Shown: one piece after another, positions 4,184 to 23,739 of the stretch | How positions within the stretch are numbered: position 1 is the first letter of the stretch | Layout of the letters: each line of letters opens with the position of its first letter | From: a virus | IMG/VR virus record: IMGVR_UViG_3300042520_000085 | Span: 1-36,576 of that record | Length of the DNA stretch: 36,576 nucleotides | Reading direction: 5' to 3' (one strand) | Position numbers and translations under genes: made by a program | The notes under the pieces: generated by a model | Told to the model about the DNA's origin: nothing | The model's database searches: none | Seen by the model: the letters and a program-made list of their open reading frames with translations, nothing else

Positions 4184-5764
4184 TTATCCTATCTTCTTCT
4201 TTAATTCATCAATTTCAGCCATTAGTCCTTTGATTGCTTCTACTAACACAGGAACTATCTTTTCTTCTCTTACTGTCAAATATGGGTTTTCAGGATCATA
4301 GTTGATGCCTTCTCTAGGAATCAATCTGTCACCATCCTTATTAGTATATTGTAGCATTTGAATTGCTGCTGCCTGTGGAAGAACCTCTTGAACTTCCTGT
4401 GCAACCAAACCAACTTCGATGCCAGTATTAGTTTCATCCAAAAGTTTGTTGCCGATATCATTCCATTCATAACGATAACCATTTATACCATTAAGAATTG
4501 TGCGCCAATCAGTAATCTTAGTAAGGTTCTTCTTAAGTCTTCTATCCGACCAATAAGCAGTAATATTGCCGTTTGTGTAGAAGTTGCCAGCGCCTTCGAA
4601 AATAGCTCTAGTACCATTGTCTTGTGTGCCGAATCTAATCCACCACTGATTTGTAAAGCTTCCTGAAATCCAGGTTGCACCACCATTACTGAAATGGAAT
4701 CTAACGAAATTATCTGGATATGATCTAACCCACTGATCGTTGTTTAGCTCAAGGACATTCAATCTAGTTCCAGCAGATGGATCAACATAATAGTTGATGT
4801 TGTTTCTATCTCTAATAGAACTTACTTGAACTTCGTTTAGAATTGAAGTTCCCGCAGGATCGAGTAAGAAAGTCTGATTATCTTGATCAAGGAATCTTCT
4901 TCCAACAATATCACCAAACGAACGAATATAATTAACATCAAGGTTAGCTAGTTTAGAATTGCCATTAGGATCAACTCGGTAATCTTGATTGTTTAGATCG
5001 ATCAAGAGAGGAGCGTAAACGGCATTAGAGCAAGTCATATTAACAAAACTTGTTCTTTCGAATGCGGCATTTGCTTTAATGAATGCAGCGTTAGCATGTC
5101 TAAAGACTGTTGAATTGGGTGGTAATGCTTGCAATGCTATCAATACATTGTTAGAATGTAGGAATGCGGCATTAGCATGTGTGCGAGCCGTGTTAGCGTT
5201 AATATAACCAGCATTCGCATGGGTTCTTGCCGTATTGGCGTTTATGTATGCTGAGTTGGCATGATCCCTAGTAACATTTGCTCTTCCGAATGCATTGTTA
5301 GAATGTGAGAATGCCGCATTAGCATTGAAATACGCTGAGTTTGCATGACGGAATATAACAGTATTCGCTCTAGCAAAAAGATTGTTAGAGTGATTGAAAA
5401 CGGTATTAGCATTGAAATATGCAGCATTAGCATGACGCCAAACGGTGTTTGTTGTCGCAAAGGCATCGTTTGCCTTAAAGTATGCTAGATTGGCGGTGCG
5501 AAAAGCTAAAACAGTATTTTGTGATATTTGTGCGAAGCCACCGAATGTTAGATTTGCACGATCATATGCAGAGTTGGCGTGAGCCCATGCCAGATTAATT
5601 CTGTTGTTTGTGCTTCTACTAAATGAGTTAATTGTATTAACGGTATTAGTGCCGTTGGCAAACAATTCTTGAAAGTTGTCGTTTACTTTAATAAACGAAT
5701 CTCTAAGTGTATCGCCTTTGCCGTCGTTAGCAACCGAACCTACATTTACTATTTGTCTGGTCAT
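4184..5764 (-). CDS. Fibre protein with heptad shaft and C-terminal S74 intramolecular chaperone
   Basis: 526 residues. The N-terminus (IVNVGSVANDGKGDTLRDSF, then IKVNDNFQELF) is a head motif I recognise from many T4-like fibre and baseplate-attached proteins (pattern GSxANDGxGDxLRxxFxKVNxNF). Residues about 55-225 are heptads of the form xANxAYx, with repeated HANAAYF, NANTART and HSNNAFG, consistent with a trimeric coiled coil. Residues 240-385 are a beta-rich body. The C-terminus is peptidase S74: SDRRLKKN with Ser406 and Lys411, then GLVAQEVQEVLP and VPVLVEAIKGL. In the endosialidase family this chaperone trimerises, helps the shaft fold, and cuts itself off just before the Ser. Here that would release 121 residues. 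It lies between gp15 and the 767-aa fibre, away from the main fibre cluster. Confidence 0.85.
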   Translation of the reverse strand: MTRQIVNVGSVANDGKGDTLRDSFIKVNDNFQELFANGTNTVNTINSFSRSTNNRINLAWAHANSAYDRANLTFGGFAQISQNTVLAFRTANLAYFKANDAFATTNTVWRHANAAYFNANTVFNHSNNLFARANTVIFRHANSAYFNANAAFSHSNNAFGRANVTRDHANSAYINANTARTHANAGYINANTARTHANAAFLHSNNVLIALQALPPNSTVFRHANAAFIKANAAFERTSFVNMTCSNAVYAPLLIDLNNQDYRVDPNGNSKLANLDVNYIRSFGDIVGRRFLDQDNQTFLLDPAGTSILNEVQVSSIRDRNNINYYVDPSAGTRLNVLELNNDQWVRSYPDNFVRFHFSNGGATWISGSFTNQWWIRFGTQDNGTRAIFEGAGNFYTNGNITAYWSDRRLKKNLTKITDWRTILNGINGYRYEWNDIGNKLLDETNTGIEVGLVAQEVQEVLPQAAAIQMLQYTNKDGDRLIPREGINYDPENPYLTVREEKIVPVLVEAIKGLMAEIDELKKKIG

Positions 5765-8681: not shown

Positions 8682-11600
8682 TTATTTAACAGTATTTAGC
8701 ATATCAACAATACGCTTTAGATTGTCTATCTCGGTTTGCTGCTCCTTGATTGCTTCGATCAATAGAGGAACAAGTTTTTCATATTTAACTGTTAGATAGT
8801 TTTTGCCTGTTCTAGAAATCTTATTACCATTTTCATCTGAGTCGCAATCAAAAGGTGCAATGTCAACAGCATCAGACATTACTTTTTCGACTTCCTGAGC
8901 CTTTAGTCCGTGTTCATGTTCTCTATATGGAGCAAAGCCTAAAGACTTACACTTTTCTACTCTCCAATCGAAAGTATAACCAGAAATGCGCTTGATCTTA
9001 TCAATAGCATTTGCGATAGGACTAAAGTTTTCTTTTAGTCTTTCGTCAGAAGCATAAGCGGTAATGTTTGCTCTACATGACAAATCGCCTGTTCTGGCGT
9101 TTAGCCACATAGCATTTTCCCATTGTGGAACAGTCTGACCAGAAACCGATGGACCAAAACCAATACCGAACCAAGAAGTAATCTTCAAGTTTGAAGTGGT
9201 AGAGGCGACACTATCACTAGTTGTACCAAAGATATAAGCACTTCCTTGTGCGCTGAAATTGACACCGGCTGTAGTAGAACCTGTAGTATTGCTTGAGTTT
9301 GGAACTGTTACGCTACCTGTGAAGTTACCTGACCCAGAAACATCAAGTCTATGAGTTGCCCCAGGAAGTGTAGTGTCTGACTCACCATAACCTAGTCGAA
9401 CGCTATGAGCAACTGTCAACTTACCGTCGGTTGAAAGGGCCATAGCACCCTGAGCGGCTGTATGCGCAGCGTCGCCCCACCAAAATCCTCTAGTAGCAGA
9501 ATCATTCATTTGGAATGTCATAGCATATTCGTTTTCGATCGGTCCGAAAGTAAATCCATTGGTCATGCCAATCGTATAATTACTATCACTCCAAACTCTA
9601 ATTTTATCTCTACTGGTTGATGCTGGACCAGTAAGAACTGTATATGTTAGAGGTCCGCTGAAAGCTGTTGCTGATACTGTACCATTAAAGGTATGTGTGC
9701 CACCTGGTGCTCCTAGTGTTAATCTATAAGTATTAACACCATCAGACCAACCACCAATTCTGAATATGTTGTCTATATCAAGACCAAGGTTGATAGCGTA
9801 GGCACCAGTTCTATGAAATGACATGACGGCGCTAACGAATTGTGTGCCTCTAACAGAAAATGAACCTGTATCATTAGAAACTGAGGTATTTGATGTATTG
9901 GCCGCCGCAGCATTGGTTCTTCCGGTAATCAATCCGGTCATTGTTCCGCCAGCTAATGGAAGAGCATCTGTAATACCATAACCAGATAATGTAGTTGGTT
10001 TGCCTGTAACACCTGACCAAGGAATGGTACAGTTTGTTAGTGTGCCAGATGATGGAGTACCAAGTGCAGGAGTTGTTAGTGTGGGGCTGGTTGATAAAAC
10101 AACGCTACCTGATCCTGTGCTGGTTGTAGTACCCGTACCGCCGTTGGCAACAGCTAGAGTGCCAGAAACATGGGTCGTTAGACCAATCTTACCCCATGCA
10201 GGTGCTACGCCTACACCGCCTGAGATAAGAGCGTTACCTGTAGCAACATCGGCAAGTCTTGTCAATGCTGTAGTTGTTGAAGCATACAGAATATCACCAA
10301 CGGCATATGATGCGTTTCCTGTACCGCCATTAGCCGCAGCAAGCGTTCCCGTAACACCTGTAGTTAGTGGTAAACCGGTACAGTTTGTTAGTGTGCCAGA
10401 TGCTGGTGTTCCGAGAGCAGCATTGGCAGTTAGAACTCGTTTCCAAGCACCGTAAGTTGATAGTGCTGATCCGCTACCTCTAATCCATAGATTATCGTTA
10501 TCAGTGAAACCAAGTTGTCTTGTACCACCACCAGATGCGTCAGCGTATTGCTGGAATGTCATAACACCATGGTAGGTGCCGCCATCATTTAGACCGTCGG
10601 TGGTATTTGTTTTAAAGTCAAATTGAACACGGGCCGCACCAAGGCTAGGTCCATCTACGGTGGCTCTTGTATCACGAGAAGTTATATAAAAGGCAGAGCC
10701 GGTAGTGTTCTGATTTAGAGTTGGAAAGGTACAGTTTGTTAAGTTTCCGCTTGATGGTGTTCCAAGTGCAGGAGTTGTTAGTGTGGGGCTGGTTGATAAA
10801 ACAACGCTACCTGATCCTGTGCTGGTTGTAGTACCTGTACCGCCGTTGGCAACAGCTAGAGTGCCAGAAATATGAGTTGTTAGACCAATCTTACCCCAAG
10901 CTGGAGCAACACCAACACCACCAGAGATAAGAGCGTTACCGGTAGCAACATCGGCAAGTCTCGACAATGCAGTAGTTGTTGAAGCAAAAAGAAGATCGCC
11001 AACGGCATATACTGTTTGACCGGTACCGCCATTAGCCGCAGCAAGCGTTCCCGTAACACCTGTAGTTAGTGGTAAACCGGTACAGTTTGTTAGTGTGCCA
11101 GAAGATGGTGTGCCTAGAGCGCCACCATCTAGTAATACTCTACTCCATGCATTGCTACCCGAAGCATTGGTCGATCTATAATATAGACTATTTGAATAGA
11201 AGTCTGCCGCAAGTTGCATAGAATAATAATTTGAACCATTACTATGCGTTGAGGCAATCAAATGATACCAAGATGAAGTTGTTACTGGCCAACCGTTAGC
11301 TGTTGTGGCATATGATGTTTGCCAGAAACCAGAATTAATACGTGATGCAATACTTTGATTAGGAGCATCAGCACTTGACTGGGCGGCATTTAAAAATGTT
11401 GCAAAACCTGTAGTATTCTGATTTAGAGTTGGGAAGGTACAGTTTGTTAGTGTGCCAGATGATGGTGTTCCAAGGGCACCACCATTGGTGACGAATGCAC
11501 CAGCAGAACCAACGGCTGTTGCAAGTGCAGTAGCAACACCTGTGCCAAGACCAGAAACACCAGATGAAATCGGAATAGATGCTGTAACACCAGATGCCGA

Positions 11601-14600
11601 GGTAATTCGACCATAAGCATCAACGGTGAATGATGGAATGGTTGCAGCGCCGCCATATGTGGTTGCTGTAACACCAGATGTGGCTAAATCTATGAATACT
11701 AATTCATTGCTTGATGCATCAACTGTTGTATTAGCCCAAATTCTTGATGTGCTATTACTTGATACAGAAGCAACTTTGGTATTTGACCAAGCATTAGATG
11801 AAGCGCCTACTCCTGTGACACCAATTTCAGTCAATGACCAAGAAACATCGGCGCCACCGTTAAATGTCTTACCAGTTGAACCAATAGTTAGTGTTCTAGC
11901 TGTAGTTAGAGTTGCAGCAGAACCGGTGGTGCTTTGATTGAATGTTGGCCAAGTAAATGTTCCAGTTGAGAAGTTACCGCTTGCGGGTGTGCCGAGAGCA
12001 CCGCCGTTTGTTACGAATGAACCCGCAGTTCCTACAGCAACAGCAAGAGCAGTTGCAACACCGGTACCTAGACCAGACACACCGGTAGAAATAGGAATAG
12101 ATGCAGTAACATTAGAAGATGAAGTTATGCGACCATAAGCATCTACTGTATATGAAGGTATAGTTGCAACACCACCGTATGTGGTTGCTGTAACACCAGA
12201 TGTTGCTAGATCAATAAACACCAATTCGTTGCTTGAGGCATCGGTAGTTGTATTGGCCCAAACTCTTGAAGTGCTGTTGCTTGAAACTACGGCAACTTTA
12301 GTATTAACATATGGATAAACTGTAGAAGCAAAGTTCTGAGAGTCGAGTGACTTACCAGCAATGACCGTAGATTCGACTGTATCAAATGCGGTAACAAGTG
12401 AAATCTGCCAATCTTCTCTCCATGCAGCCGCAGTTCCACCACTAAAACCTGCTTCGACTTCTGTAATGTAAACTTTTGGATAAGCCCAAGCTGTTGATGT
12501 CTCACCAATCCAGATACAGTCCGACGTAGCGTCTTGTCCGAAACGAACATTTAGTTCTGGTCCTGACTGAGTTTCTTGTGTAACAAATGTATTATACCAT
12601 CCACCAACAACACTATAGTTATAACCACCAAATTGTAATGTTGTTGATGTTCCTGTTACATAGTTGAAAATTTTTACAGTAACACGCAACATTGTGTTAT
12701 TGTTATTTGCAGCGACAGGCATTTTAATTTTAATAGCACCAGTAGCAGTCGCAGCGTTGTTCGAGAATGCACCACCGCCAGGGTTAGTTATTCTAACAGT
12801 ACCAGCTACACCGTCATCATACACACCACGAGTAGTCGAAACATATCCAAGAACACCAATGTTACCTGCTAGAACGACATTATTGTTTGATAGTTTGGTA
12901 TTTGACCAAGCATTAGCAGATGCACCAACAGTAATGGTGTAGTTGTTGCCAGCAGCACCAACGGCTACTGTGTATGAATTTCCTGATGTTCCAACTGTAT
13001 TGGACCATGTATTGGATCTTGCTCCGATTGTATTTGCCCAAGCGTTGGCAGATGTTCCGACAGTATTCGACCAAGCATTAGCAGATGCACCAACGGATAA
13101 TGTATAGGAGTTGCCTGATGTACCAACTGAATTGGACCAAGCATTGGATGCCGCTCCAACTGATACTGTATAATTATTACCTGATGTACCAACTGTGTTT
13201 GCCCATCCATTGGCACCGACAGCATTGTTCCGAATAGTTATGATAGCATTAGCACCACCAAGGATCAGGTTGCTTGTTCTGATATCAGAGTTCAGAACGG
13301 CATTGACCATATTGTTTGCATACGGAACAATATCGTTTACTAATGATGGTTCTCCAGACAATCCACTGAATAGGAAATATTCTTTGGAAGCATGGTCTCT
13401 ATACAATCCAGTATGAACATTAGATGTTCCGTTGCTATAGTGTCCAACAAAACCAATATCAACAATATCAGAAATGTTATTTGTTGCTAGAAAAATTAGA
13501 GAATCTTCAACAGAAAGACTATCTGTTGTGATAGTTGTTGCATTACCAGATATTATTAGATTGCCTGTAACTTGTAAGTCACCGGTAATTGTGCCACCAG
13601 ATTTCTTAAAGTAGGTTGAATCTGAATATATGTTTACTGAATTGGCCCAAGCATTGCTTGATGCACCAACAGTAATGGTGTAGTTGTTACCAGCAGTACC
13701 GACAGAAATGGTATAGTTATTACCTGAGGTGCCGACTGTATTAGCCCAAGTATTTGATCTTGCGCCAATTGTGTTGGCCCATGCATTTGCGGCTGCACCA
13801 ACTGCTACTGTATATGAGTTACCGGCTGCACCAACTGCTACTGTATATGAGTTACCGGCTGTACCAACAGTATTTGACCAAGCGTTTGTTACTGCTCCTA
13901 CGGATACAGTATAAGCATTACCGGCTGTACCAACTGCTACTGTATATGAGTTACCTGAGGTACCAACAATGTTAGCCCAAGCATTTGAACTTGCACTGAT
14001 TGTATTGGCCCAAGCATTAGCTGCCGCACCAGTTGCAATAGTATAGTTGTTGCCGGCTGCATTAACAGCAAGCATGTATGTATTACCTGACGAACCTACC
14101 GTATTAGCCCAAGCATTACTTGAAGCTCCGACTGCTACTGTATAAGCATTACCTGATGCATTAACGGCAAGCATATATGTATTACCGGATGAACCTACTG
14201 TTGTGGCGACTGATAATGCATAAGCATTTGCGGCTGCTCCAACTGCTACAGTGTATGAGTTACCTGAGGCTCCAACTGCTACTGTGTAAGCATTACCGGC
14301 TGCACCAACTGCAACAGTATAAGCATTACCTGCGGCATTAACGGCAAGCATGTAAGTATTACCTGACGAACCTACTGTATTAGCCCAAGCATTTGAACTT
14401 GCACTGATTGTATTGGCCCATGCATTTGATGATGCACCAACGGCTGTTGAATAAGCATTACCGGCTGTACCAACTGCTACAGTATAAGCATTACCGGCTG
14501 ATCCGATTACAACTGAGTAAGCATTACCAGCAGCACCAACAGAAATGGTATAGTTATTACCGGCGGCCCCGACTGTATTAGCCCATGTGTTTCCTGCTGT

Positions 14601-15518
14601 TCCAACTGCTACAGTATAAGAGTTACCTGATGATCCAACCGATGTAGCTGTTGATAAAGCATAAGCGTTACCGGCTTGTCCGACTTGTGTAGCTGTTGAT
14701 AAAGCATAAGCGTTACCGGCTTGTCCGACTTGTGTAGCTACTGATAATGCATAAGCATTGGCAGATGATCCAACTGTATTGGACCATGTATATGATCTTG
14801 CGCCGATTGTGTTAGCCCAGTTATTACCTGCAACACCAACAGCAACAGTATATGCATTACCAGCAGCACCAACGGCATCGGTGTAATTATTACCTGCAAC
14901 ACCAACAGCAATCGTATAGTTATTACCGGCTGCGGCAACTGTAATGACATAAGCATTAGCACCAGCACCCGTATCTGTAATTCTATTATTTGCTAATTCA
15001 AAAAGATATCCGGAGTAAGCATTAGCGCCTATTCCTGTATCATACGCCAGAACATTTGCAGCATTCGCTTTATCGAATGCAGCATTGGCATTATCATAGG
15101 CGGCCGCCACATAGAGAACATCATTTGAAAGATTAGCACGATCAAATGCTGCTTGTGTTAAAGTAAGAGTGGTGTTAGTGCTATCAAATGCTGCCGAAGC
15201 AAGATCAATAGCAGGTGTCAGATTTGCAGAGATTGTAATTGCATCTGTGAGTGCCGAACTAGTAATCTCAATATTCTGTCCTTGATTAAAGGTAAGAATA
15301 TCATTTGGGATATCTGCAATTACCAGTGTGCCGGCTGCATTGATGGTTCCGAAGTTGAAACCACCTTCACCACCAGAGATAGACTGAATGTTGCCGTTAA
15401 TGTCCTTATAGTAAATAAGACCATCGGCATAGTTAATAGCAATTTCACCATTAGCTAGATCAGCCGGTGAAGATCCTGGAATAGATGATTTCTTTAGAGC
15501 AATTACTGTGTTGGTCAT
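8682..15518 (-). CDS. Giant tail fibre with hendecad shaft, knob-like domains and S74 chaperone
   Basis: 2278 residues. The N-terminal head (1-60) has VIALKKSSIPGSSPADLANG followed by EIAINYADGLIYYKD, a phage fibre head pattern also present in the 359-aa gene. Residues about 85-155 are AFDxAN heptads; 180-630 and 765-875 carry about 49 units of an 11-residue repeat (GNxYTVAVGxx or SNxWANTVGxx), with some 15-residue units. A GGTITGD domain lies near 635-735. Then come repeated cassettes (VDAYGRIT, ALGTPSSGTLTNCT, ANGGTG) and two segments near 1396-1466 and 1609-1694 whose W/Y pattern resembles pyocin-knob fibre domains. S74 occupies the C-terminus (SDERLKEN, Ser2157, Lys2162), releasing 122 residues on self-cleavage. 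It starts by TAATG overlap with the 179-aa gene and lies where T4 carries wac, just before gp13. Probably a receptor-binding long fibre. Confidence 0.85.
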   Translation of the reverse strand: MTNTVIALKKSSIPGSSPADLANGEIAINYADGLIYYKDINGNIQSISGGEGGFNFGTINAAGTLVIADIPNDILTFNQGQNIEITSSALTDAITISANLTPAIDLASAAFDSTNTTLTLTQAAFDRANLSNDVLYVAAAYDNANAAFDKANAANVLAYDTGIGANAYSGYLFELANNRITDTGAGANAYVITVAAAGNNYTIAVGVAGNNYTDAVGAAGNAYTVAVGVAGNNWANTIGARSYTWSNTVGSSANAYALSVATQVGQAGNAYALSTATQVGQAGNAYALSTATSVGSSGNSYTVAVGTAGNTWANTVGAAGNNYTISVGAAGNAYSVVIGSAGNAYTVAVGTAGNAYSTAVGASSNAWANTISASSNAWANTVGSSGNTYMLAVNAAGNAYTVAVGAAGNAYTVAVGASGNSYTVAVGAAANAYALSVATTVGSSGNTYMLAVNASGNAYTVAVGASSNAWANTVGSSGNTYMLAVNAAGNNYTIATGAAANAWANTISASSNAWANIVGTSGNSYTVAVGTAGNAYTVSVGAVTNAWSNTVGTAGNSYTVAVGAAGNSYTVAVGAAANAWANTIGARSNTWANTVGTSGNNYTISVGTAGNNYTITVGASSNAWANSVNIYSDSTYFKKSGGTITGDLQVTGNLIISGNATTITTDSLSVEDSLIFLATNNISDIVDIGFVGHYSNGTSNVHTGLYRDHASKEYFLFSGLSGEPSLVNDIVPYANNMVNAVLNSDIRTSNLILGGANAIITIRNNAVGANGWANTVGTSGNNYTVSVGAASNAWSNSVGTSGNSYTLSVGASANAWSNTVGTSANAWANTIGARSNTWSNTVGTSGNSYTVAVGAAGNNYTITVGASANAWSNTKLSNNNVVLAGNIGVLGYVSTTRGVYDDGVAGTVRITNPGGGAFSNNAATATGAIKIKMPVAANNNNTMLRVTVKIFNYVTGTSTTLQFGGYNYSVVGGWYNTFVTQETQSGPELNVRFGQDATSDCIWIGETSTAWAYPKVYITEVEAGFSGGTAAAWREDWQISLVTAFDTVESTVIAGKSLDSQNFASTVYPYVNTKVAVVSSNSTSRVWANTTTDASSNELVFIDLATSGVTATTYGGVATIPSYTVDAYGRITSSSNVTASIPISTGVSGLGTGVATALAVAVGTAGSFVTNGGALGTPASGNFSTGTFTWPTFNQSTTGSAATLTTARTLTIGSTGKTFNGGADVSWSLTEIGVTGVGASSNAWSNTKVASVSSNSTSRIWANTTVDASSNELVFIDLATSGVTATTYGGAATIPSFTVDAYGRITSASGVTASIPISSGVSGLGTGVATALATAVGSAGAFVTNGGALGTPSSGTLTNCTFPTLNQNTTGFATFLNAAQSSADAPNQSIASRINSGFWQTSYATTANGWPVTTSSWYHLIASTHSNGSNYYSMQLAADFYSNSLYYRSTNASGSNAWSRVLLDGGALGTPSSGTLTNCTGLPLTTGVTGTLAAANGGTGQTVYAVGDLLFASTTTALSRLADVATGNALISGGVGVAPAWGKIGLTTHISGTLAVANGGTGTTTSTGSGSVVLSTSPTLTTPALGTPSSGNLTNCTFPTLNQNTTGSAFYITSRDTRATVDGPSLGAARVQFDFKTNTTDGLNDGGTYHGVMTFQQYADASGGGTRQLGFTDNDNLWIRGSGSALSTYGAWKRVLTANAALGTPASGTLTNCTGLPLTTGVTGTLAAANGGTGNASYAVGDILYASTTTALTRLADVATGNALISGGVGVAPAWGKIGLTTHVSGTLAVANGGTGTTTSTGSGSVVLSTSPTLTTPALGTPSSGTLTNCTIPWSGVTGKPTTLSGYGITDALPLAGGTMTGLITGRTNAAAANTSNTSVSNDTGSFSVRGTQFVSAVMSFHRTGAYAINLGLDIDNIFRIGGWSDGVNTYRLTLGAPGGTHTFNGTVSATAFSGPLTYTVLTGPASTSRDKIRVWSDSNYTIGMTNGFTFGPIENEYAMTFQMNDSATRGFWWGDAAHTAAQGAMALSTDGKLTVAHSVRLGYGESDTTLPGATHRLDVSGSGNFTGSVTVPNSSNTTGSTTAGVNFSAQGSAYIFGTTSDSVASTTSNLKITSWFGIGFGPSVSGQTVPQWENAMWLNARTGDLSCRANITAYASDERLKENFSPIANAIDKIKRISGYTFDWRVEKCKSLGFAPYREHEHGLKAQEVEKVMSDAVDIAPFDCDSDENGNKISRTGKNYLTVKYEKLVPLLIEAIKEQQTEIDNLKRIVDMLNTVK
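10000..11122 (-). repeat. Direct duplication with 702-nt offset in the 2278-aa fibre
   Basis: Two blocks recur exactly 702 nt apart: 10060-10133 equals 10762-10835 (74 nt, perfect) and 10321-10400 equals 11023-11102 (80 nt, perfect). Sequence between them is similar but not identical. The duplicated unit is 234 residues: an ALGTPSSG/ANGGTG linker pair plus a knob-like domain. The linkers are almost identical and the knobs are different. Confidence 0.85.
12892..13220 (-). repeat. 33-nt coding repeats (hendecads), second block of the 2278-aa fibre
   Basis: Ten units of 33 nt encode 11-residue repeats such as GNSYTVAVGAA, SNTWSNTVGTS and GNNYTITVGAS. They follow the GGTITGD domain. Unit copies differ mostly at synonymous positions and at the residue after Asn (Ala, Ser, Thr, Asn or Gly). 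Confidence 0.85.
13635..14970 (-). repeat. 33-nt coding repeats (hendecads), main block of the 2278-aa fibre
   Basis: About 39 consecutive units, mostly 33 nt, encoding [GSA]Nx[YW]xxxVGxx. Some units are 45 nt (15 residues: GNAYALSTATQVGQA, near 14640-14760), which is the 11-residue unit plus 4. Tandem copies make this stretch prone to length change by unequal recombination. Confidence 0.88.
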
Positions 15519-16057
15519 TAAAAGTCGTCTGTCTTATCTTCCTGTTCCACAAAGGGCATTTCTATAATCTTTGTATTTATGTTCTTTTTAGACGGCTGTT
15601 TTTTGGGCTGAGGTGTTAACTTAATGAGTTGCTTATCTTTTGCTTGTAACTCATTCTTAACACTCGTTAGTTCATTGTTGGCTGTTTCTAGTTGTTGTTT
15701 CATAGATTCTACTAGAGAATTGAGTCTATCAATATCTCTATTCTTATCAACAAACTGATTTCTTAGATCATTATATTGATTAGTCAAGGTGTCCATATGA
15801 CTCACCTTGTTTTTCATGGCATTGTATTCTTGTTCCCATTTTGTTGCATTTTCAGTTGCTTTTGAAAACTCTTGCTGATTTTTACTAGCATTTGTAAGTT
15901 CTTCTTTCAAAGTGGAAATGACCCCATCTTTTTCGGCGATGAGGTCACTAGCCAACTTTGCTTGCGTTTTCAACTGTAGAATAGTATTGATTTGATCATG
16001 TAATGTTGAAACTGTAATATCAACATAAGTATTCATAAACTTGTTAGCATCACTCAT
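15518..16057 (-). CDS. Coiled-coil protein of unknown function
   Basis: 179 residues. Residues 15-145 are almost continuous heptad-like helix rich in Lys, Glu, Gln, Asn and Leu (LISTL-type spacing, DIDRLNSLVESMKQQLETAN, NELTSVKNELQAKDKQLIKL). A basic Pro/Lys segment (TPQPKKQPSKKN) and an acidic tail ending DKTDDF follow. The composition is quite unlike the Ala/Asn/Gly-rich fibres around it. GGAG lies 8 nt before the ATG, and the stop overlaps the start of the giant fibre (TAATG). A small coiled coil tightly coupled to a fibre gene could be an assembly chaperone (as T4 gp57A is for T4 fibres) or a fibre linker. This is inferred from position only. Confidence 0.55.
   Translation of the reverse strand: MSDANKFMNTYVDITVSTLHDQINTILQLKTQAKLASDLIAEKDGVISTLKEELTNASKNQQEFSKATENATKWEQEYNAMKNKVSHMDTLTNQYNDLRNQFVDKNRDIDRLNSLVESMKQQLETANNELTSVKNELQAKDKQLIKLTPQPKKQPSKKNINTKIIEMPFVEQEDKTDDF
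15574..15581 (-). promoter_or_regulatory. Late promoter-like CATAAATA
   Basis: The minus strand reads CATAAATA, one base from the T4 late consensus, 56 nt before the start of the 2278-aa giant fibre and inside the 179-aa gene. A transcript from here would begin with the giant fibre and run into the neck genes. Weak motif-only evidence. Confidence 0.22.
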
Positions 16058-16076
16058 AATAAAGTCTCCGTGTTAG

Positions 16077-17156
16077 TTAGAATGTTCCCCCATCTAGCAT
16101 ACCAAACGCTGGAACACCAAATGCATCGGCCTGTAGAACTTGTCCTTCAGTACCGGCAGAAGTAACCTGTAGAGAACCTGCATTGTTTCCGAATAGGATA
16201 CCATTAGTTGTAAATAGATTCTTTCCGGTACCACCGTATGGAACAGTGATTGTGTCTGCATTCCATGTACCAGAAGTTAGAGTACCAACACCGGTGATTC
16301 CTGAGTATGTTCCCGAAACTCTTGCAGATGCAATGATACCAGATACTAGATTTGCTGCATCAGAGAATGTCTGGAAGATTTTTGTGTTGACTGCATTGGT
16401 GTAAGCATTACCGGCTGTACCGACTGCTACAGTATAAGCATTACCAGCAGCACCAACGGCATCAGTGTAATTATTACCTGCAACACCAACGGCCTGTGCA
16501 TAAGCATTGGCACTGGCTGCTACGCTGTTAACAAATGTGTTAGAAGCAATTTGGTGATATGTCGAACCATCATTAGTGAATGTCCAAACTGTCTGAGACT
16601 CGTCCCAAAGAATTGCGACATCGTTCTGATTACCACGATTAACTTCCATACCAGCATTTTCAGATGGTGAAGCACCTGCTGGAAGATCGGCATTTAGAAC
16701 GAAGATGTTATCGCCAACATTCAATGTCTGAGTATTGGCATAAGTTGTAACACCTGAAATTGTTAGGTTACCAGAAACGACAACATCACCTGAAATGGTG
16801 CCGCCTGTCTTGGCATAGAATGTATCAGTTGCATATGTGTTAGCAGATGCACCAACAAATTCGGCGTAAGCATTACCTGAGGTACCAACTGTGTTAGCCC
16901 ATGCATTACCAGAGGCTGCAACTGTGCCTAGCCATGCATTGGCAGCACTAGCCACCGAGTTTGCATGTTCAAAGGCAGCTATTGTGTGGTTTACCCAATA
17001 GGTACCACCGATTTCATTAACGCTTAGACCATTTGCTGTGCCGATAAAGAGTCTATCGGAAGCGTAGGAATACGCTAGTTCTGCGGCAGAGAGCGAACCA
17101 CCTGGTGGGGTGGTCGTCCCTGTTGATCGTTTAATCTGAATTACTGTATTGCTCAT
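16077..17156 (-). CDS. Fibre or baseplate-attached structural protein
   Basis: 359 residues. The N-terminal head (VIQIKRSTGTTTPPGGSLSA followed by AELAYSYASDRLFIG) is a widespread phage fibre start. Residues about 70-115 and 210-250 hold eight hendecad units (GNAWANTVGTS, GNAYTVAVGTA) as in the giant fibres. Between them, residues 118-205 form a GGTISGD domain (TTYANTQTLNVGDNIFVLNA, NAGMEVNRG) nearly the same as one in the 1715-aa fibre. The end is TVPYGGTGKNLFTTNGILFG and finally MLDGGTF. No S74 chaperone is present. It begins by TAATG overlap with the 77-aa gene, which ends in the same GGTF. It may be a short fibre or an adaptor joining a larger fibre to the baseplate. Confidence 0.75.
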   Translation of the reverse strand: MSNTVIQIKRSTGTTTPPGGSLSAAELAYSYASDRLFIGTANGLSVNEIGGTYWVNHTIAAFEHANSVASAANAWLGTVAASGNAWANTVGTSGNAYAEFVGASANTYATDTFYAKTGGTISGDVVVSGNLTISGVTTYANTQTLNVGDNIFVLNADLPAGASPSENAGMEVNRGNQNDVAILWDESQTVWTFTNDGSTYHQIASNTFVNSVAASANAYAQAVGVAGNNYTDAVGAAGNAYTVAVGTAGNAYTNAVNTKIFQTFSDAANLVSGIIASARVSGTYSGITGVGTLTSGTWNADTITVPYGGTGKNLFTTNGILFGNNAGSLQVTSAGTEGQVLQADAFGVPAFGMLDGGTF

Positions 17157-17389
17157 TAGAAGGTTCCTCCGTTTACGATGGGCAATTCTCTAACTACAAA
17201 TTTGTCACTCGCCTCATCATAAACAATAGTTTCGTTGTTATTCAAGCTGGTAGCATCAACATCATTCAATTGTCTCAAATTTTCTTTAAGGTTTTGTTTA
17301 CCTGACAATCCTACAGATTTAATATTTGACTGTTGCTGTATGTTGATAGAAATTCTATTCTTGGGTTGTGTTCTAACAATGATTGACAT
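17156..17389 (-). CDS. Small virion-type protein ending in GGTF
   Basis: 77 residues. The second half (LRQLNDVDATSLNNNETIVY, then DEASDKFVVRELPIVNGGTF) matches a motif frequent in phage fibre proteins: LxxLxDVD, NxxxLxYD, KxxVxx, ending in DGGTF or NGGTF. The first half is basic (VRTQPKNRISINIQQQ). TAGGAC lies upstream of the ATG in the 7 nt after the 114-aa gene, and the stop is shared with the next start by TAATG. Probably a minor fibre or baseplate part that works with the 359-aa protein. No enzyme motif is seen. Confidence 0.6.
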   Translation of the reverse strand: MSIIVRTQPKNRISINIQQQSNIKSVGLSGKQNLKENLRQLNDVDATSLNNNETIVYDEASDKFVVRELPIVNGGTF

Positions 17390-17396
17390 TTTAGTC

Positions 17397-17741
17397 CTAT
17401 CGAGTTATGCCATGTGTTACGAAAATCACACCCTCTATTAGTCTCGTTGTTTCGTTTTGCGCTCTAGGGTTAACAACTTTAACATCAAAGAAATAGTTAC
17501 CGGGTCTTAGATTAGCGGTATTCGCTGCCGTCATTGACAGTGATAGTTCGCCATTTGATCCATCTAATACTGAGCAAGTTAGATTGGCAGAGGCGTTTAC
17601 GGACAGTAAAGAGCGTCTTAACTGACTTGTTATAACATACCCAGAAGTGTTCTGTGGCATATTCGTATTGTCATCATTTAATTCAATTACTACATTGAAA
17701 TCCGCACCTCTGTCTATGTAAAGTTCTGCGTATTCTGCCAT
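17397..17741 (-). CDS. Small beta-sandwich virion protein
   Basis: 114 residues. The start (MAEYAELYIDRGADFNVVIE) and the end (NYFFDVKVVNPRAQ, RLIEGVIFVTHGITR) follow a family I recall from T4-like aquatic phages, with pattern LYIDxGADF near the start, GxYxYDVxVxD, and a final EGxVxVxxGITR. Residues 30-80 (GYVITSQLRRS, SNGELSLSMTAANTANL) look like an immunoglobulin-like beta sandwich. AGGAAAG precedes the ATG. It sits between the 1715-aa fibre and the 77-aa protein and is probably a small virion part near the fibre base. Exact role unknown. Confidence 0.6.
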   Translation of the reverse strand: MAEYAELYIDRGADFNVVIELNDDNTNMPQNTSGYVITSQLRRSLLSVNASANLTCSVLDGSNGELSLSMTAANTANLRPGNYFFDVKVVNPRAQNETTRLIEGVIFVTHGITR

Positions 17742-17750
17742 TTACTTTCC

Positions 17751-17758
17751 TATTTATT
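17751..17758 (-). promoter_or_regulatory. Late promoter-like AATAAATA
   Basis: The minus strand reads AATAAATA in the 21-nt gap between the 1715-aa fibre and the 114-aa gene, one base from the late consensus. A start site about 6 nt downstream would leave only a few bases for the AGGAAAG ribosome site, so it may be chance. Confidence 0.15.
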
Positions 17759-17762
17759 CCTC

Positions 17763-20700
17763 TTATTTAGCTTTTAGCTCATCTAGCTCGGTCTTTAGTT
17801 CTTTGATTGCTTCAATTAGAAGCGGAACAATACGATCATACTTGACTGCTTTGATTCCGTCTTCTCTAGTTGCAACAACTTCTGGAAGAACTGCTTCAAT
17901 CTCTTGAGCGATAACACCAATATCATGCTTGCGAACAAAGTAATCATCTTCACCACCTTGGGCTTCAATGAAGGCGTCTGTCCAATCAAACTCAACACCA
18001 TTGATCTTTTCGATCTTGGCAAGAGCATTATCGATAGTCTTAACATTCTCCTTCAATGAAGCATCGGATGAATAGAATGCTGTAATATCGTTTGTTGCTC
18101 TAATCTGACCAGCAGTTCCAGAACCAGCGGTACCAACACCGATTGAGTTAAACTGTGAATTTTGAGTTGTGCTAGTAAATGTAACAGCCGATCCGTCAAT
18201 ACTAGTAATACCAGTTAGTGACTGTGCAGCCGAGGCTCTATTAAGAGCAATGGCGGTAGTACCAACATAAGTGGTTGCTCCTACAGCGGCAGCACCAATT
18301 TCGGCTAGTGACCATGAAACAGCAGCAGAACCATCCACGCTCTTTCCGGTTGAACCGATAGTGATTGTTCTGGCAGTTCCCCATGTAGCGGTAGTAATAG
18401 CAGCAGAACCGTTAAAGGCTGTACCGTTAATATTTCTTGCTGTTGTTAATGTAGCAGCCGATCCATCAATTGAAGTGATACCGGTTAGCGATTGTGCGGC
18501 TGATGCTCTATTGAGTGTGATGGCAGTAGTACCAACATAAGTAGTTGCTCCTACAGCGGCAGCACCAATTTCGGCCAATGACCAAGATACTGCGGCAGAA
18601 CCATCAACAGACTTACCGGTCGATCCAATTGTAATGGTTCTTGCAGTACCCCATGTGGCAGTAGTAATTGCTGCCGATCCATTGAATGCAGTACCGTTAA
18701 TGTTTCTAGCGGTTGTTAGTGTAGCGGCTGAACCATCAATAGATGTAATACCAGTTAGTGACTGCGCTGCCGATGCTCTATTTAATACTATTGAAGTAGT
18801 ACCAACATTGACAGTAGAATCGTTAGCGGCCACACCCATTTCGCTATGTGTCCAAGTATAGTTGCCTGAACCATCAACAGATTTTGCAGTATCGCCGAGG
18901 GTGATTGTTCTAGAAGTACCCCAAGTGGTAGTGGTGATATTACCCGTACCATTGAACGCTGTACCATTGATGTTTCTAGCGGTTGTCAATGATGCAGCGG
19001 AACCATCAATAGAGGTGATGCCGGTCAATGACTGTGCTGCGGATGCTCTATTAAGTGTAATAGCGGTAGTACCAACATAAGTGGTTGCACCAACGGCTGC
19101 TGCACCAATTTCTGCTACTGTCCATGATACAGCGGCCGATCCATCGACAGACTTACCGGTCGATCCAATGGTGATTGTTCTAGCAGTACCCCATGTTGCG
19201 GTAGTAATAGCAGCAGTACCATCAAAATTAGTACCATTGATGGCTCTTGCTGTAGTTAGTTTAGCAGCCGAACCATCAATGGAGGTGATACCAGTTAGTG
19301 ACTGCGCTGCTGAGGCTCTATTCAATACGATTGATGTAGTACCAACATTGACAGTGGCATCATTTGCAGCAACACCCATTTCAGATAGTGTCCAAGTATA
19401 GTTTCCTGAACCATTAACTGATTTGCCAGTATCACCAATTGTAATAGTTCTAGCAGTACCCCAATTGGCAGTGGTGATATCAGCAGAACCATTAAATGCA
19501 GTTCCGTTAATATTTCTTGCTGTTGTTAGTGTGCCTGCTGAACCAGTTGTGTTCTGATTTAGTGTCGGGAAGGTACAGTTTATTAATGTACCAGAAGATG
19601 GTGTGCCTAGCGCACCACCATTTGTAACAAACGCACCGGCTGAGCCAACTGCGGTAGCTAGTGCAGTAGCAACACCGGTACCAAGTCCAGATACACCGGT
19701 AGAGATTGGAATAGATGCTGTAATATTAGATGCTGATGTAATTCTTCCATAAGCATCTACAGTGTATGATGGTATGGTTGAAGCTCCGCCGTATGTACCG
19801 GCAGCAACACCAGATGTTGCAAGATCAACGAATACAAGTTCATTACTTGAGGCATCAACAACATTATTGGCCCAAATTCTAGTAGTGTTATTGCTTGTAA
19901 CAGCAGCAATCTTAGTATTGGCCCAGTTATTAGCAGCCGCAGCGACACCAATAACACCAATTTCAGATAGTGTCCAAGAAACATCGGCAGTGCCATTGAA
20001 TGTCTTGCCAGTTGAACCAACAGTTAGGGTTCTGGCAGTTGTCAATGATCCAGCGGAACCAGTTGTGTTCTGGTTTAGAGTTGGGAAGGTACAGTTTCCT
20101 AGGTTACCACTTGATGGTGTACCGAGAGCACCACCATTGGTGACGAATGCTCCGGCAGTACCTACAGAGGTAGCTAGTGCAGTTGATACACCAGTTCCTA
20201 GTCCAGATACACCAGATGAGATTGGAACAATCGATGTAACATTAGCTGATGATGTAATACGACCGTAAGCATCGACTGTAAATACTGGAGTAACAGTAGC
20301 ACTACCATATGTGGTTGCTGTAACACCTGACTGAGCAAGGTCAATGAATACAAGTTCATTGCTTGATGCATCGGTGGTATTGTTAGCCCAAATTCTTGAG
20401 GTGCTATTACTTGTAACGGCACCAATCTTGGTATTAGCCCAGTTATTAGCACTGTTAGCCATTCTACCGGCTAGTGTATTGGCACTAACTGCGGTAAGCT
20501 GAATGCTTCCAGCGGCCCAAGCATTAGCACTCTCAACATGGGTATTGGTTGCAATACCATAGTTGCCTGTACCGTCATTAAGTGTCCATCTGTTTAAGGT
20601 TTCGTTCCATAGAACAGAGACAGCATTTGAAGTTAGACCACGATTAACTTCGATACCAGCATCTTCTGTAGGAATAACAGAACCGAACCAGTCAGCGTTT

Positions 20701-22910
20701 AGAACAATGATATTATCGCCAACCATTAGTGTTTGTGTATTGGCGTATGTTGTCTGTCCAGCGATGACAAGGTTGCCAGTTACGGTAACATCGCCACTAA
20801 TTGTACCACCTGACTTGGTGTAGAAAGTTGCACCAGCATGTGAGTTAATAGAGTTAGCCCATGCATTTGATGATGCGCCAACTGATATTGCATATGCATT
20901 ACCGGCTGCTCCAACTGCTACAGTGTATGAATTACCGGCTGCGTTAACAGCAAGCATATAACTATTACCAGATGATCCAACGGTGTTGGCCCAGGTATTT
21001 GATCTTGCTCCAATTGTATTAGCCCAGCCATTAGCGGCTGCAACCATAGATTCTGAAACTTGGTTCTGATTTAGAGTTAAGTTCTGAATCTGTGCGTAAA
21101 TTGCTGAATTGACGGTGTTGGCCCAACCATTAGATGCTGCACCAATTGATACTGAGTAGTTATTACCGGCAGTGCCTACTGTATTAGCCCAGCTATTAGA
21201 TGCTGCACCAACGGCTACTGTATAAGAATTACCAGCAGCACCAACGGCTACTGTATAAGCATTTCCTGCGGCTCCAACTGCTACAGTATAAGCATTACCT
21301 GATGCATTAACGGCAAGCATATATGTATTGCCGGATGAACCGACTGACTGAGCATAAGCATTACCTGATGTACCTACAGTGTTGGCCCATGCATTTGATC
21401 TTGCACCAATTGTGTTTGACCAAGCATTAGCAGATGATCCGACAGCAATAGCATAATTATTACCAGCTGTTCCTACAGCAATAGCATATGCATTAGCAGA
21501 TGATCCTACTGCTACAGTATAAGCATTGCCGGCAGCGCCAACAGCTATAGAGTATGCATTAGCAGATGATCCTACTGCTACTGTATAAGCATTTCCAGCG
21601 GCTCCAACGGCTACTGCATAAGAATTTCCTGCGGTTCCAACTGCTACTGTATAAGCATTACCAGCGGCTCCAACGGCTACAGAGTATGCATTTCCTGATG
21701 AGCCTACTGTATTAGACCAAGCGTTTCCTGATGCTCCGACTGCTACAGTGTAAGCATTACCTGATGTACCTACAGTATTAGCCCATGTATTGGATCTTGC
21801 ACCAATTGTGTTTGACCAAGCATTACCAGCAGCGCCAACAGCTACAGTATAATTGTTTCCAGCTACGCCAACTGCTACAGTATATGAGTTACCTGATGTT
21901 CCTACTGTGTTTGACCATGCATTACTTGATGCACCAACTGTATTTGACCATGCATTAGCAGAAGCACCGACAGTGTTAGACCAAGCATTGCCAGCAGCGC
22001 CGACTGCTACCGTATAAGTATTACCAGCGACACCTACAGCGACAGTGTATGAGTTACCAGCAGCACCAACGGCTACTGTGTATGAATTTCCTGATGCTCC
22101 GACTGCTACAGTATAAGCATTACCTGATGTGCCTACTGTATTGGCCCAAGTATTTGATCTTGCGCCAATGGTATTGGCCCATGCATTTGCGGATGCGCCG
22201 ACAGTGTTAGACCAAGCATTACCAGATGCTCCAACAAAATTAGTATAGACATTGCCTGCAACACCCACTGTATTAGACCAGGCATTGGCTGATGATCCAA
22301 CAAATACTGTATAAGCATTTCCTGCAACACCTACTGTATTAGACCATGCATTACCAGCAGCACCAACGGCTACTGTGTATGAATTTCCTGAGCTACCGAC
22401 TGTATTAGCCCATGTGTTTGATCTTGCACCAATTGTATTGGCCCAAGCATTAGCAGATGCACCGACAGTATTCGACCATGCATTACCAGCAGCACCAACG
22501 GCTACTGTATATGAATTTCCTGAGCTACCGACAGTATTTGACCAAGCGTTACCCGAATCGGCTACTCTATCGATATAAACATTGGCAGAAGAAGCTAGAT
22601 TGTTTGCCCATGCATTGGCACTAATAGCAACGCTGTTTACCTTAATCATGGTAGCGTTTGCTAGAGTGAATGTATTACCTACGACACGAATACCAGCAAC
22701 ATTAGATGATACTGTGTCGAGAACATTCTGAGAGGGGATAACATCAATGTAAATGATTTCGCCTACATTGATTGAGGCCGTGGTTCGAACAGATAAACTG
22801 TTAGAACGAGTTTGGGCTGTATTACCACTGTATGCGTAAATAATCTGATTTGTTTTGATGCGCCATTGATCAAATGTGTCAGTGAACGCTACGTTTGGTA
22901 AGTTGGCCAT
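17763..22910 (-). CDS. Giant tail fibre with hendecad shaft, tandem 90-residue units and S74 chaperone
   Basis: 1715 residues. The N-terminus (LPNVAFTDTFDQWRIKTNQI) is a fibre head type seen in T4-like aquatic phages (pattern TFxxWRxKTN). Residues about 95-685 carry about 52 hendecad units (GNSYTVAVGAA, SNTWANTVGSS), broken once near 600-620 by a Gln-rich non-repeat segment. A GGTISGD domain follows (about 690-790), then two cassettes with NELVFIDLA and VDAYGRIT. Next come five tandem 90-residue units (about 1125-1575; TARNINGTAFNGSAAITTAT to NRASAAQSLTGITSI). The end is S74 (SDASLKEN, Ser1615, Lys1620; GVIAQEIEAVLP; VPLLIEAIKEL), releasing 101 residues. The start lies immediately after the stop of the 68-aa gene. 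Likely a receptor-binding fibre paralogous to the 2278-aa one. Confidence 0.85.
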   Translation of the reverse strand: MANLPNVAFTDTFDQWRIKTNQIIYAYSGNTAQTRSNSLSVRTTASINVGEIIYIDVIPSQNVLDTVSSNVAGIRVVGNTFTLANATMIKVNSVAISANAWANNLASSANVYIDRVADSGNAWSNTVGSSGNSYTVAVGAAGNAWSNTVGASANAWANTIGARSNTWANTVGSSGNSYTVAVGAAGNAWSNTVGVAGNAYTVFVGSSANAWSNTVGVAGNVYTNFVGASGNAWSNTVGASANAWANTIGARSNTWANTVGTSGNAYTVAVGASGNSYTVAVGAAGNSYTVAVGVAGNTYTVAVGAAGNAWSNTVGASANAWSNTVGASSNAWSNTVGTSGNSYTVAVGVAGNNYTVAVGAAGNAWSNTIGARSNTWANTVGTSGNAYTVAVGASGNAWSNTVGSSGNAYSVAVGAAGNAYTVAVGTAGNSYAVAVGAAGNAYTVAVGSSANAYSIAVGAAGNAYTVAVGSSANAYAIAVGTAGNNYAIAVGSSANAWSNTIGARSNAWANTVGTSGNAYAQSVGSSGNTYMLAVNASGNAYTVAVGAAGNAYTVAVGAAGNSYTVAVGAASNSWANTVGTAGNNYSVSIGAASNGWANTVNSAIYAQIQNLTLNQNQVSESMVAAANGWANTIGARSNTWANTVGSSGNSYMLAVNAAGNSYTVAVGAAGNAYAISVGASSNAWANSINSHAGATFYTKSGGTISGDVTVTGNLVIAGQTTYANTQTLMVGDNIIVLNADWFGSVIPTEDAGIEVNRGLTSNAVSVLWNETLNRWTLNDGTGNYGIATNTHVESANAWAAGSIQLTAVSANTLAGRMANSANNWANTKIGAVTSNSTSRIWANNTTDASSNELVFIDLAQSGVTATTYGSATVTPVFTVDAYGRITSSANVTSIVPISSGVSGLGTGVSTALATSVGTAGAFVTNGGALGTPSSGNLGNCTFPTLNQNTTGSAGSLTTARTLTVGSTGKTFNGTADVSWTLSEIGVIGVAAAANNWANTKIAAVTSNNTTRIWANNVVDASSNELVFVDLATSGVAAGTYGGASTIPSYTVDAYGRITSASNITASIPISTGVSGLGTGVATALATAVGSAGAFVTNGGALGTPSSGTLINCTFPTLNQNTTGSAGTLTTARNINGTAFNGSADITTANWGTARTITIGDTGKSVNGSGNYTWTLSEMGVAANDATVNVGTTSIVLNRASAAQSLTGITSIDGSAAKLTTARAINGTNFDGTAAITTATWGTARTITIGSTGKSVDGSAAVSWTVAEIGAAAVGATTYVGTTAITLNRASAAQSLTGITSIDGSAASLTTARNINGTAFNGTGNITTTTWGTSRTITLGDTAKSVDGSGNYTWTHSEMGVAANDSTVNVGTTSIVLNRASAAQSLTGITSIDGSAATLTTARNINGTAFNGSAAITTATWGTARTITIGSTGKSVDGSAAVSWSLAEIGAAAVGATTYVGTTAITLNRASAAQSLTGITSIDGSAATLTTARNINGTAFNGSAAITTATWGTARTITIGSTGKSVDGSAAVSWSLAEIGAAAVGATTYVGTTAIALNRASAAQSLTGITSIDGSAVTFTSTTQNSQFNSIGVGTAGSGTAGQIRATNDITAFYSSDASLKENVKTIDNALAKIEKINGVEFDWTDAFIEAQGGEDDYFVRKHDIGVIAQEIEAVLPEVVATREDGIKAVKYDRIVPLLIEAIKELKTELDELKAK
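18186..19535 (-). repeat. Five tandem 270-nt coding repeats in the 1715-aa fibre
   Basis: Each unit encodes 90 residues running from DGSAATLTTARNINGTAF to NRASAAQSLTGITSI. Two variants alternate: type A (GNYTWTLSEMGVAANDATVN) and type B (AAVSWSLAEIGAAAVGATTY). Protein order from the N-terminal side is A-B-A-B-B. The 270-nt period is plain from the recurring gtaccaacat at about 18269, 18529, 18799, 19069 and 19339 on the plus strand. Confidence 0.85.
20850..22625 (-). repeat. 33-nt coding repeats (hendecads) in the 1715-aa fibre
   Basis: About 52 units of 33 nt, of the same design as those in the 2278-aa fibre. They are interrupted near 21040-21120 by a Gln/Leu-rich segment (YAQIQNLTLNQNQVSESM). 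GARSNTWANTV units recur at intervals among GNxYTVAVG units, hinting at a higher-order repeat made of several hendecads. Confidence 0.88.
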
Positions 22911-23117
22911 TTACTTTACGAGTCCCTTTAGTAATTCTTTAATTTCGTTTATGTCTTCTTTTACCGTCTTCATATCTTGCTGTAAAGTATCTACAGCCAT
23001 CATTCTTTGCTTGTTTCGCTTGTATGCATTTAAAGCATCGGTATCTCTATTTATAAGTATTCCTTCAGAGACTTTATAGAGACCCGGAACTTCTGTTTTC
23101 TGTTCTTTATTTGTCAT
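22911..23117 (-). CDS. Small helical protein of T4-like fibre region
   Basis: 68 residues: VPGLYKVSEGILINRDTDAL, then NAYKRNKQRMMAVDTLQQDM, then a helix ending KELLKGLV. The pattern GLYKxxxGxLINxDxxALxAYKxxK followed by a helix is one I recall from many T4-like aquatic phages, usually beside fibre or large baseplate genes. The C-terminal half is a predicted coiled coil (heptads VDTLQQDMKTVKEDI). It overlaps the 210-aa gene by 11 nt and stops directly at the start of the 1715-aa fibre (TAA ATG), so translation of the fibre may depend on it. A TATAAATA sequence lies inside it. Function unknown. Confidence 0.6.
   Translation of the reverse strand: MTNKEQKTEVPGLYKVSEGILINRDTDALNAYKRNKQRMMAVDTLQQDMKTVKEDINEIKELLKGLVK
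23048..23055 (-). promoter_or_regulatory. T4-type late promoter -10 candidate (TATAAATA)
   Basis: The minus strand reads TATAAATAG, a perfect match to the T4 late promoter consensus, which is read by RNA polymerase with gp55/gp33/gp45. It lies inside the 68-aa gene, 138 nt before the start of the 1715-aa fibre, so it could drive the fibre cluster. Such an 8-mer can occur by chance in AT-rich DNA; support is motif plus position only. Confidence 0.35.
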
Positions 23118-23739
23118 TGTCTATGCACCCGTGAAATTCTGCAACTTTGCTAAGTAGCTTCGCCCATTCTTCATCAACACCTTCGATGTTGGTTATCTGG
23201 CTAGGTGGTATAGCATACTCACCGAGAGTGATATGATGGTCGGTAATTACTATGTCAACATCAAAACCTAGAATAGCAACTGCTCGTCTAGTAACAATGT
23301 TGTTAGAGTTGATCTTAATGTTACCTGATAAATCAGCATCGCCACAAACAATTGCTGAACCATATACTTGCGAATGGTTTCTCACCTTTGCATCTTCATA
23401 AACTTCGGCATCGCCGTAAATCATTGCATTGTTACAAACTACTGCATTTCCATATACTTTAGAGTTACCTGATACTCTTGCACTGTTTGTAATAGTGGCA
23501 TCGCCATATACTCTCGCCTTATCATATACTCTTGCATTACCGGAAACAACAGCATTTCCATACACTCTTGCATCTTCGCCAATGAAACAATCTTCATCAA
23601 CTTTGGCAGTGTTAGCAACCCATCCTTTTCCTTTTGGGTGTCGATGGGCTGCTACTAATCCGTTGCCATCTTTGAAATCAAATAGTGTTTCATCAATATC
23701 AATTTCAATCACTTCAACTTCACTCATATTATTCTCCAA
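23107..23739 (-). CDS. Left-handed beta-helix (hexapeptide repeat) protein
   Basis: 210 residues. Residues about 48-145 are some 16 imperfect hexapeptides of the form [V/I]xGNA[R/V] (GNAVVSGNARVYDKARVYGD, ATITNSARVSGNSKVYGNAV). This is the signature of a left-handed parallel beta helix, usually trimeric. The preceding AHRHPKGKGWVANTAKV is the typical lead-in (pattern HPxGxGxVAxTAxV) in the YdcK-like group that also occurs in phages. The C-terminal 60 residues (LGEYAIPPSQITNIEG, WAKLLSKVAEFHG) are a separate cap. No acyltransferase motif stands out, so a structural role on the tail fits better than an enzyme. It is followed by the 68-aa and 1715-aa genes and preceded by the DUF4815 gene without a gap. 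Confidence 0.75.
   Translation of the reverse strand: MENNMSEVEVIEIDIDETLFDFKDGNGLVAAHRHPKGKGWVANTAKVDEDCFIGEDARVYGNAVVSGNARVYDKARVYGDATITNSARVSGNSKVYGNAVVCNNAMIYGDAEVYEDAKVRNHSQVYGSAIVCGDADLSGNIKINSNNIVTRRAVAILGFDVDIVITDHHITLGEYAIPPSQITNIEGVDEEWAKLLSKVAEFHGCIDNDK

Follow-up and report, generated by a model that had tools for sequence, protein, structure and literature searches.

The window analysed here is a 36,576-base virus record whose proteins match T4-type terminase, neck, tail-sheath stabiliser and baseplate wedge proteins, and by these sequence matches its phage is a T4-like myovirus. Identical DNA was found in metagenome contigs reaching 174 kb. Three fibre proteins of 1715, 359 and 2278 residues (W1715, W359 and W2278), all encoded on the minus strand, lie between a large VrlC-like protein and the neck genes (Table 1). 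In relatives such as Pelagibacter phage HTVC008M and Sinorhizobium phage phiM12, the tail-fibre genes occupy this same place. The C-termini of both giant fibres carry PF13884 matches that exceed the cut-off. This S74 chaperone domain is a mark of trimeric fibres, in which the tip folds with its aid and trimming follows. At the other end of W1715, blastp with residues 1-98 retrieved relatives with 36-48% identity and, over short stretches of 19-21 residues, three matches at 81-84%.

Several neighbouring features were recorded on the same strand. A 0.9-kb stretch is common to distal W2278 (11405-12306) and distal W1715 (19541-20436) at 75% DNA identity, which points to duplication or exchange between the two genes. 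Between the VrlC-like protein and W1715 lies the gene for a 210-aa YdcK-type/hexapeptide beta-solenoid protein (23107-23739), for which a single relative was found outside the same phage population. Two further proteins, of 767 aa (1875-4178) and 526 aa (4184-5764), contain heptad-like repeats of Asn and aromatic residues; in the latter, the N-terminus resembles T4 gp9/10 and the C-terminus is of S74 type. Residues 797-970, at the C-terminus of a baseplate-wedge-like protein (31452-34400), match a Laminin_G_3/concanavalin A-like lectin domain (Pfam E 3e-18), possibly a sugar-binding module on the baseplate.

Table 1. Fibre genes, repeat blocks and associated domains, in window positions
Feature	Position	Strand	Basis
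W1715, 1715-aa tail fibre	17763..22910	-	ORF; Peptidase_S74 and PHROG long-tail-fibre matches
W1715 N-terminal anchor, residues 1-98	22617..22910	-	conserved in relatives (blastp)
46 consecutive hendecad units, W1715 residues 99-604	21099..22616	-	Nx[YW] spaced exactly 11
22-residue break in W1715, register kept, heptad-like hydrophobic spacing IYAQIQNLTLNQNQVSESMVAAA	21033..21098	-	sequence; spacing 33
6 more hendecad units, W1715 residues 627-692	20835..21032	-	Nx[YW] spacing
Five tandem 270-bp (90-aa) repeats of ARTITIGSTGKSVDGSA type, distal W1715	18178..19532	-	Tandem Repeats Finder
Peptidase_S74 intramolecular chaperone domain, W1715 residues 1615-1679	17874..18068	-	Pfam PF13884 E 2.7e-15
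114-aa protein between fibre genes, L-shaped-tail-fibre-assembly-like	17397..17741	-	PHROG 3304 E 5e-15; Pfam LtfC
W359, 359-aa third fibre protein	16077..17156	-	ORF; hendecads; orthologues whose slot holds 7-, 11- or 15-residue repeats
W359 hendecads, two blocks of 4	16809-16940 and 16377-16508	-	Nx[YW] spacing
W2278, 2278-aa tail fibre	8682..15518	-	ORF; Peptidase_S74 and PHROG matches
W2278 heptad-like lead-in AAYDNANAAFDKANAAN, residues 109-165	15024..15194	-	sequence; AF2 helical from residue 137
W2278 first repeat block, residues 166-639, mostly 11-mers	13602..15023	-	spacing; AF2 (residues 1-330) helical where covered
Three consecutive 15-residue units, W2278 residues 254-298	14625..14759	-	spacing 15,15,15; TRF period 45, 95% match
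Fourth 15-residue unit, W2278 residues 431-445	14184..14228	-	spacing
W2278 second repeat block, 10 units, residues 770-879	12882..13211	-	spacing
Peptidase_S74 chaperone domain, W2278 residues 2157-2218	8865..9050	-	Pfam PF13884 E 8.7e-13

All three fibres contain an 11-residue unit, Nx[YW]xxxVGx[SA][GAS]. Successive Nx[YW] motifs of W1715 are spaced by 11 residues 50 times, with the 46 units at residues 99-604 consecutive, and those of W2278 by 11 (41 times), 15 (4), 22 (3) and 7 (1), while W359 has 8 units in all. The strict motif [GSA]Nx[YW]xxxVGxx occurs 30 times in W2278 and 40 times in W1715, against 0.03-0.04 in shuffled sequences. An earlier note on this DNA had reported about 100 such units in the two giant fibres, and the 50 and 41 steps of 11, nearly absent after shuffling, bear it out. 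Its single range, 13635-22625, covered the array start near 15023; it nevertheless ran across two separate arrays, left out part of the W2278 array (the end of the first block and all of the second) and enclosed W359 with its additional units. In W1715, the units at residues 594 and 627 are separated by 33 residues, or 3 x 11, so that the register passes unbroken through the intervening IYAQIQNLTLNQNQVSESMVAAA, which by its sequence reads as ordinary coiled coil.

At the DNA level the hendecads are mostly diverged (33-bp period, 60-87% match by Tandem Repeats Finder). The 15-residue variants described in the earlier note were recovered as 45-bp units of ALSTATQVGQAGNAY at 14643-14756, with 2.5 copies at 95% match; since these copies are so alike, unlike the 33-bp units, they look recently duplicated. 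Three contigs otherwise identical to the window (L009, L010 and L056) stop inside the W2278 array, at window positions 14662-14851. Such ends are expected of assembly breaks, and array lengths in these assemblies need caution. An apparent 55% match had suggested allele swapping between near-identical strains; we dropped this idea on finding that it reflected contigs ending inside the array.

The repeat is not confined to the window. An in-frame DNA pattern of three units matched at least 115 stretches among viral contigs; a version with its spacing one base out of frame, serving as chance control, gave 1 match. Pattern matches and tblastn relatives together gave 126 non-redundant arrays with 660 distinct 11-mers. 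Direct reading of five related cultured phages (L166-L170) revealed no hendecad array, and tblastn of the array against cultured phages gave no match, in a search where BLAST masks low complexity. Across 21 arrays there was no consistent Pfam or PHROG match over the array; matches to Pfam PCC_BT and DUF7726 were judged low-complexity artefacts. The fibres had no Pfam match to Hep_Hag head repeats or a YadA anchor at E up to 1, and a PDB sequence search with the array returned chance-level matches only. A match to an already solved repeat family, an outcome raised in the earlier note, was thus looked for and not found, nor did the literature searched yield a paper describing this repeat family.

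Structure prediction gave opposite answers for the same motif in sister proteins. AF2 modelled W2278 residues 1-330 with helices at 137-249 and 256-329 running through heptads, hendecads and pentadecads (pLDDT 44-80 in ten-residue blocks), and W1715 residues 85-720 as a regular beta-solenoid, each unit contributing a single 6-residue strand (pLDDT mostly 57-76 for blocks within the array, pTM 0.45). The second model would make each 11-mer a strand (A-Y-T-V-A-V) followed by a Gly/Asn turn (G-A-A-G-N), with strands stacked along the fibre as a beta-solenoid or beta-fibre. The alternating YTVAV and the turn-like Gly-x-x-Gly-Asn fit such a fold, as does the hydrophobic moment of the window's Tyr-type units (YTVAVG), which taken alone is larger at 164 degrees (beta) than at 98 degrees. 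However, confident but unrealistic beta-solenoids are a known AF2 product for tandem repeats: about 40% of random ones receive a beta-solenoid fold, and the models disagree (PMC11795689). AF2 itself also made the same motif helical in W2278. Foldseek returned no confident PDB match for the beta model and weak long-helix matches only for the helical model against viral models. Because the two AF2 models contradict each other, we dropped AF2 as arbiter of the fold, counting neither model as proof, and sought evidence independent of it.

The lengths of the units provided such evidence. In the 126 arrays, 906 steps were of 11 residues and 111 of 15, the commonest length after 11, and steps of 12, 13 and 14 occurred only 2, 2 and 2 times; 97% of 1154 spacings were sums of 4s and 7s. 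This is the coiled-coil stutter rule, under which 7+4=11, 7+4+4=15 and 7+7+4=18 (PMC4786415), and it favours a helix, since a beta turn would accept insertions other than the 4 residues that make up almost all single insertions here. Some of the 15-mers are related by descent, yet they fall into at least three sequence types (ALSTATQVGQAG, ASILAANNAVGA and TRVFANSVGDSA).

Covariation between unit positions pointed the same way. APC-corrected mutual information was -0.002+-0.005 at i+2, 0.016+-0.005 at i+3 and 0.039+-0.006 at i+4 (bootstrap over loci), counts that are not fully independent because units within arrays share descent. It was also high at i+1 and nil beyond i+4. The pattern was stable across reweightings and appeared in every locus bootstrap (column permutation p=0.03), and the subset of Val/Ile-Gly units gave a weaker signal of the same shape. 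A heptad control, drawn from repeats of the same phages, covaried at i+3/i+4; a hexapeptide beta-solenoid control from viral contigs reached 0.013 at i+2 and 0.024 at i+6, where the corresponding hendecad values were -0.0007 at i+2 and -0.010 at i+11. In covariation, the hendecads thus behave as a helix, like the heptad and not the beta-solenoid control.

Composition formed a further line of evidence. Proline is absent from all 660 distinct units. Gly7 is exchanged for Ala, Thr or Ser and Gly10 for Ala or Ser, with Asn or Asp rare at either position, unlike in turns, which speaks for a helix. Large residues (Y2, V6, S/A9 by column composition) are spaced 4-3-4 over the 11-residue period, and the hydrophobic moment over all units was 2.73 at 98 degrees versus 1.36 at 164 degrees. 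Variability is high at two neighbouring positions, 4 and 5, the first of which is often polar, features that a two-faced strand leaves unexplained. Against a helix counts the richness in Gly, Asn and beta-branched residues, which makes the unit an intrinsically poor helix former. A conservation (entropy) wheel was non-significant (p=0.26) and does not discriminate by itself. Weighing these results, we regard a beta fold as unlikely.

The same composition, rich in Gly, Asn, Ser and Ala, together with the low to moderate pLDDT of both AF2 models, could instead indicate a low-complexity linker, flexible or disordered, into which AF2 read too much in both cases; structure predictors can over-fold disordered repeats (PMC11795689). 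Such a linker would hardly keep Asn, aromatic and Val residues strictly conserved at fixed spacing across hundreds of units, nor hold its register over 506 residues, and quantised unit lengths with i+3/i+4 covariation imply a regular fold. We consider a linker very improbable.

Further evidence for a helical shaft came from orthologous fibres. Orthologues of W359 share the N-terminus, a GGTITGDL-type beta domain and the C-terminus, and differ in the slot between, which holds heptads in L128, L063 and L191, hendecads in the window and pentadecads in L239 (NAYTRVFANSVGDSA repeated). Among 30 such slots with a significant period, which are not all independent because some phages are closely related and units share descent, the period was 7 or 14 in 12, 11 in 15, 15 in 3 and no other value. 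A slot filled alike by repeats of 7, 11 and 15 residues argues for an alpha-helical coiled coil, and a heptad coiled coil in the slot counts against a beta fold. The earlier note had left helix and beta as alternatives. Its helical option, with the logic of 7, 11 and 15, gains from unit lengths, controlled covariation, the absence of Pro, the scarcity of Asn and Asp at the Gly positions and this replacement by heptads, pentadecads or collagen; in favour of its beta option stand the YTVAV appearance of the Tyr-type units and a single AF2 model of an unreliable class.

The W2278-type slot bears on the number of chains. In at least four relatives (L128, L181, L199, L236 and L287 are listed) it carries collagen-like Gly-X-Y repeats (GTQGTTGTQG), which argues for three chains. 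A helical shaft that is not a homotrimer, whether dimer, tetramer or other helical bundle, has precedent in the right-handed hendecad and pentadecad bundles of tetrabrachion and VASP, which are tetramers. Yet collagen is an obligate triple helix, and the S74 domains at the C-termini of both giant fibres belong to a family of trimeric fibres, so we hold another oligomer to be quite unlikely. The number of hendecads borne on a conserved anchor ranges from 0 to about 50 among orthologous fibres. The best reading of the shaft is thus as a spacer that changes length in evolution by whole units between a constant anchor and tip, and from these sequences the stalk appears to be an exchangeable, length-adjustable spacer.

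We propose, with a probability of roughly three in four, that the three adjacent fibres carry trimeric, nearly straight hendecad coiled-coil shafts, acting as spacers between an anchor and an S74-chaperoned tip. Each repeat array would fold as a long alpha-helix with a periodicity of 11 residues per 3 turns and, in local stretches, 15 per 4 turns, and the helices would assemble, most likely, as a parallel homotrimer, nearly straight or weakly right-handed. Plotted on an 11/3 wheel, Tyr/Trp2-Val6-Ser/Ala9 would form one 4-3-4 stripe and Ala/Thr3-Gly7-Gly/Ala10 an adjacent 4-3-4 stripe of small residues. The Gly/Ala holes of one chain may receive the aromatic and Val side chains of its neighbour, and such large-into-small packing would account for the glycines. 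The shaft would serve as a rigid spacer from the conserved N-terminal anchor to a distal beta tip requiring the C-terminal S74 chaperone. At 0.15 nm per residue, its main block would measure about 76 nm in W1715 (506 residues), in agreement with the roughly 75 nm that the earlier note gave for 46 uninterrupted units if helical, and about 71 nm in W2278. Shaft length would evolve in whole units, with modules of 7, 11 and 15 residues gained, lost or swapped, and with collagen in one fibre type.

Some known systems resemble these shafts in part. The PCoil of E. coli prophage collagen-like side-tail fibres (EPclA/B) is helical by CD and trimeric by SEC-MALLS (PMC3368898), and resembles the window shafts as a low-complexity, Ala/Ser-rich helical spacer of a phage tail fibre, varying in length by whole repeats and adjoined by a collagen module (PMC3368898). 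It differs in being heptad-based and rich in Ala, Ser and Glu: its Ala-X-X-Ala/Ser-X-X-Ser heptads are not those of the window, where the period is 11, the aromatic position is invariant, Asn, Tyr/Trp, Val and Gly are fixed and the runs are far longer. The trimeric autotransporter adhesin NadA3 (PDB 6EUN) mixes undecads, of 11 residues per 3 turns, with heptads in a trimeric stalk (PMC6191539), but its undecads are two and isolated, in contrast to 46 consecutive, Gly-rich units in the window, and we found no sequence relation. Similar in composition are the heptad NxxY shafts (ANxAYxx) of related uncultured phages and of the window's 526-aa and 767-aa proteins, which share the Asn, aromatic and Ala residues and, in the related phages, occupy the same slot of orthologous fibres; their period is 7 and their Asn lies three, not two, residues before the aromatic. 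The tetrabrachion stalk and the VASP tetramerisation domain are right-handed coiled coils of cellular proteins, tetrameric with aliphatic cores, that share hendecad and pentadecad periodicity with the window shafts. The C-terminal region of the window fibres matches PHROG long-tail-fibre families, of the T4-type distal subunit (gp37), with its best-scoring stretches in the S74 tip and distal repeats, outside the hendecad shaft.

Hendecad coiled coils, trimeric Ala/Ser spacers of phage fibres (PMC3368898) and adhesin undecads (PMC6191539) are already known. What appears to be new is a sequence family that no Pfam or PHROG model matched consistently and that has no solved relative among the PDB matches. 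On balance, we favour the broader view that, from one orthologue to the next, one slot is filled by 7/2, 11/3 or 15/4 coiled coils or by a collagen triple helix, and that a glycine-and-aromatic hendecad core gives uninterrupted trimeric rods, nearly untwisted and 70-76 nm long, which may be the longest hendecad runs of any virus. The repeat also documents a case in which AF2 gives two contradictory folds for one motif. If our proposal is right, these fibres would provide a natural series for the study of coiled coils, comprising hundreds of tandem hendecads with in-register pentadecads and an unusual Gly/Tyr/Trp core, and would give protein design a source of straight, unit-adjustable rods. 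Orthologous fibres in which 7-, 11- and 15-residue coiled coils and collagen are exchanged would allow a direct test of how periodicity, twist and rod length are related. The proposal would also suggest that uncultured T4-like phages tune the reach of their fibres while leaving anchor and tip untouched.
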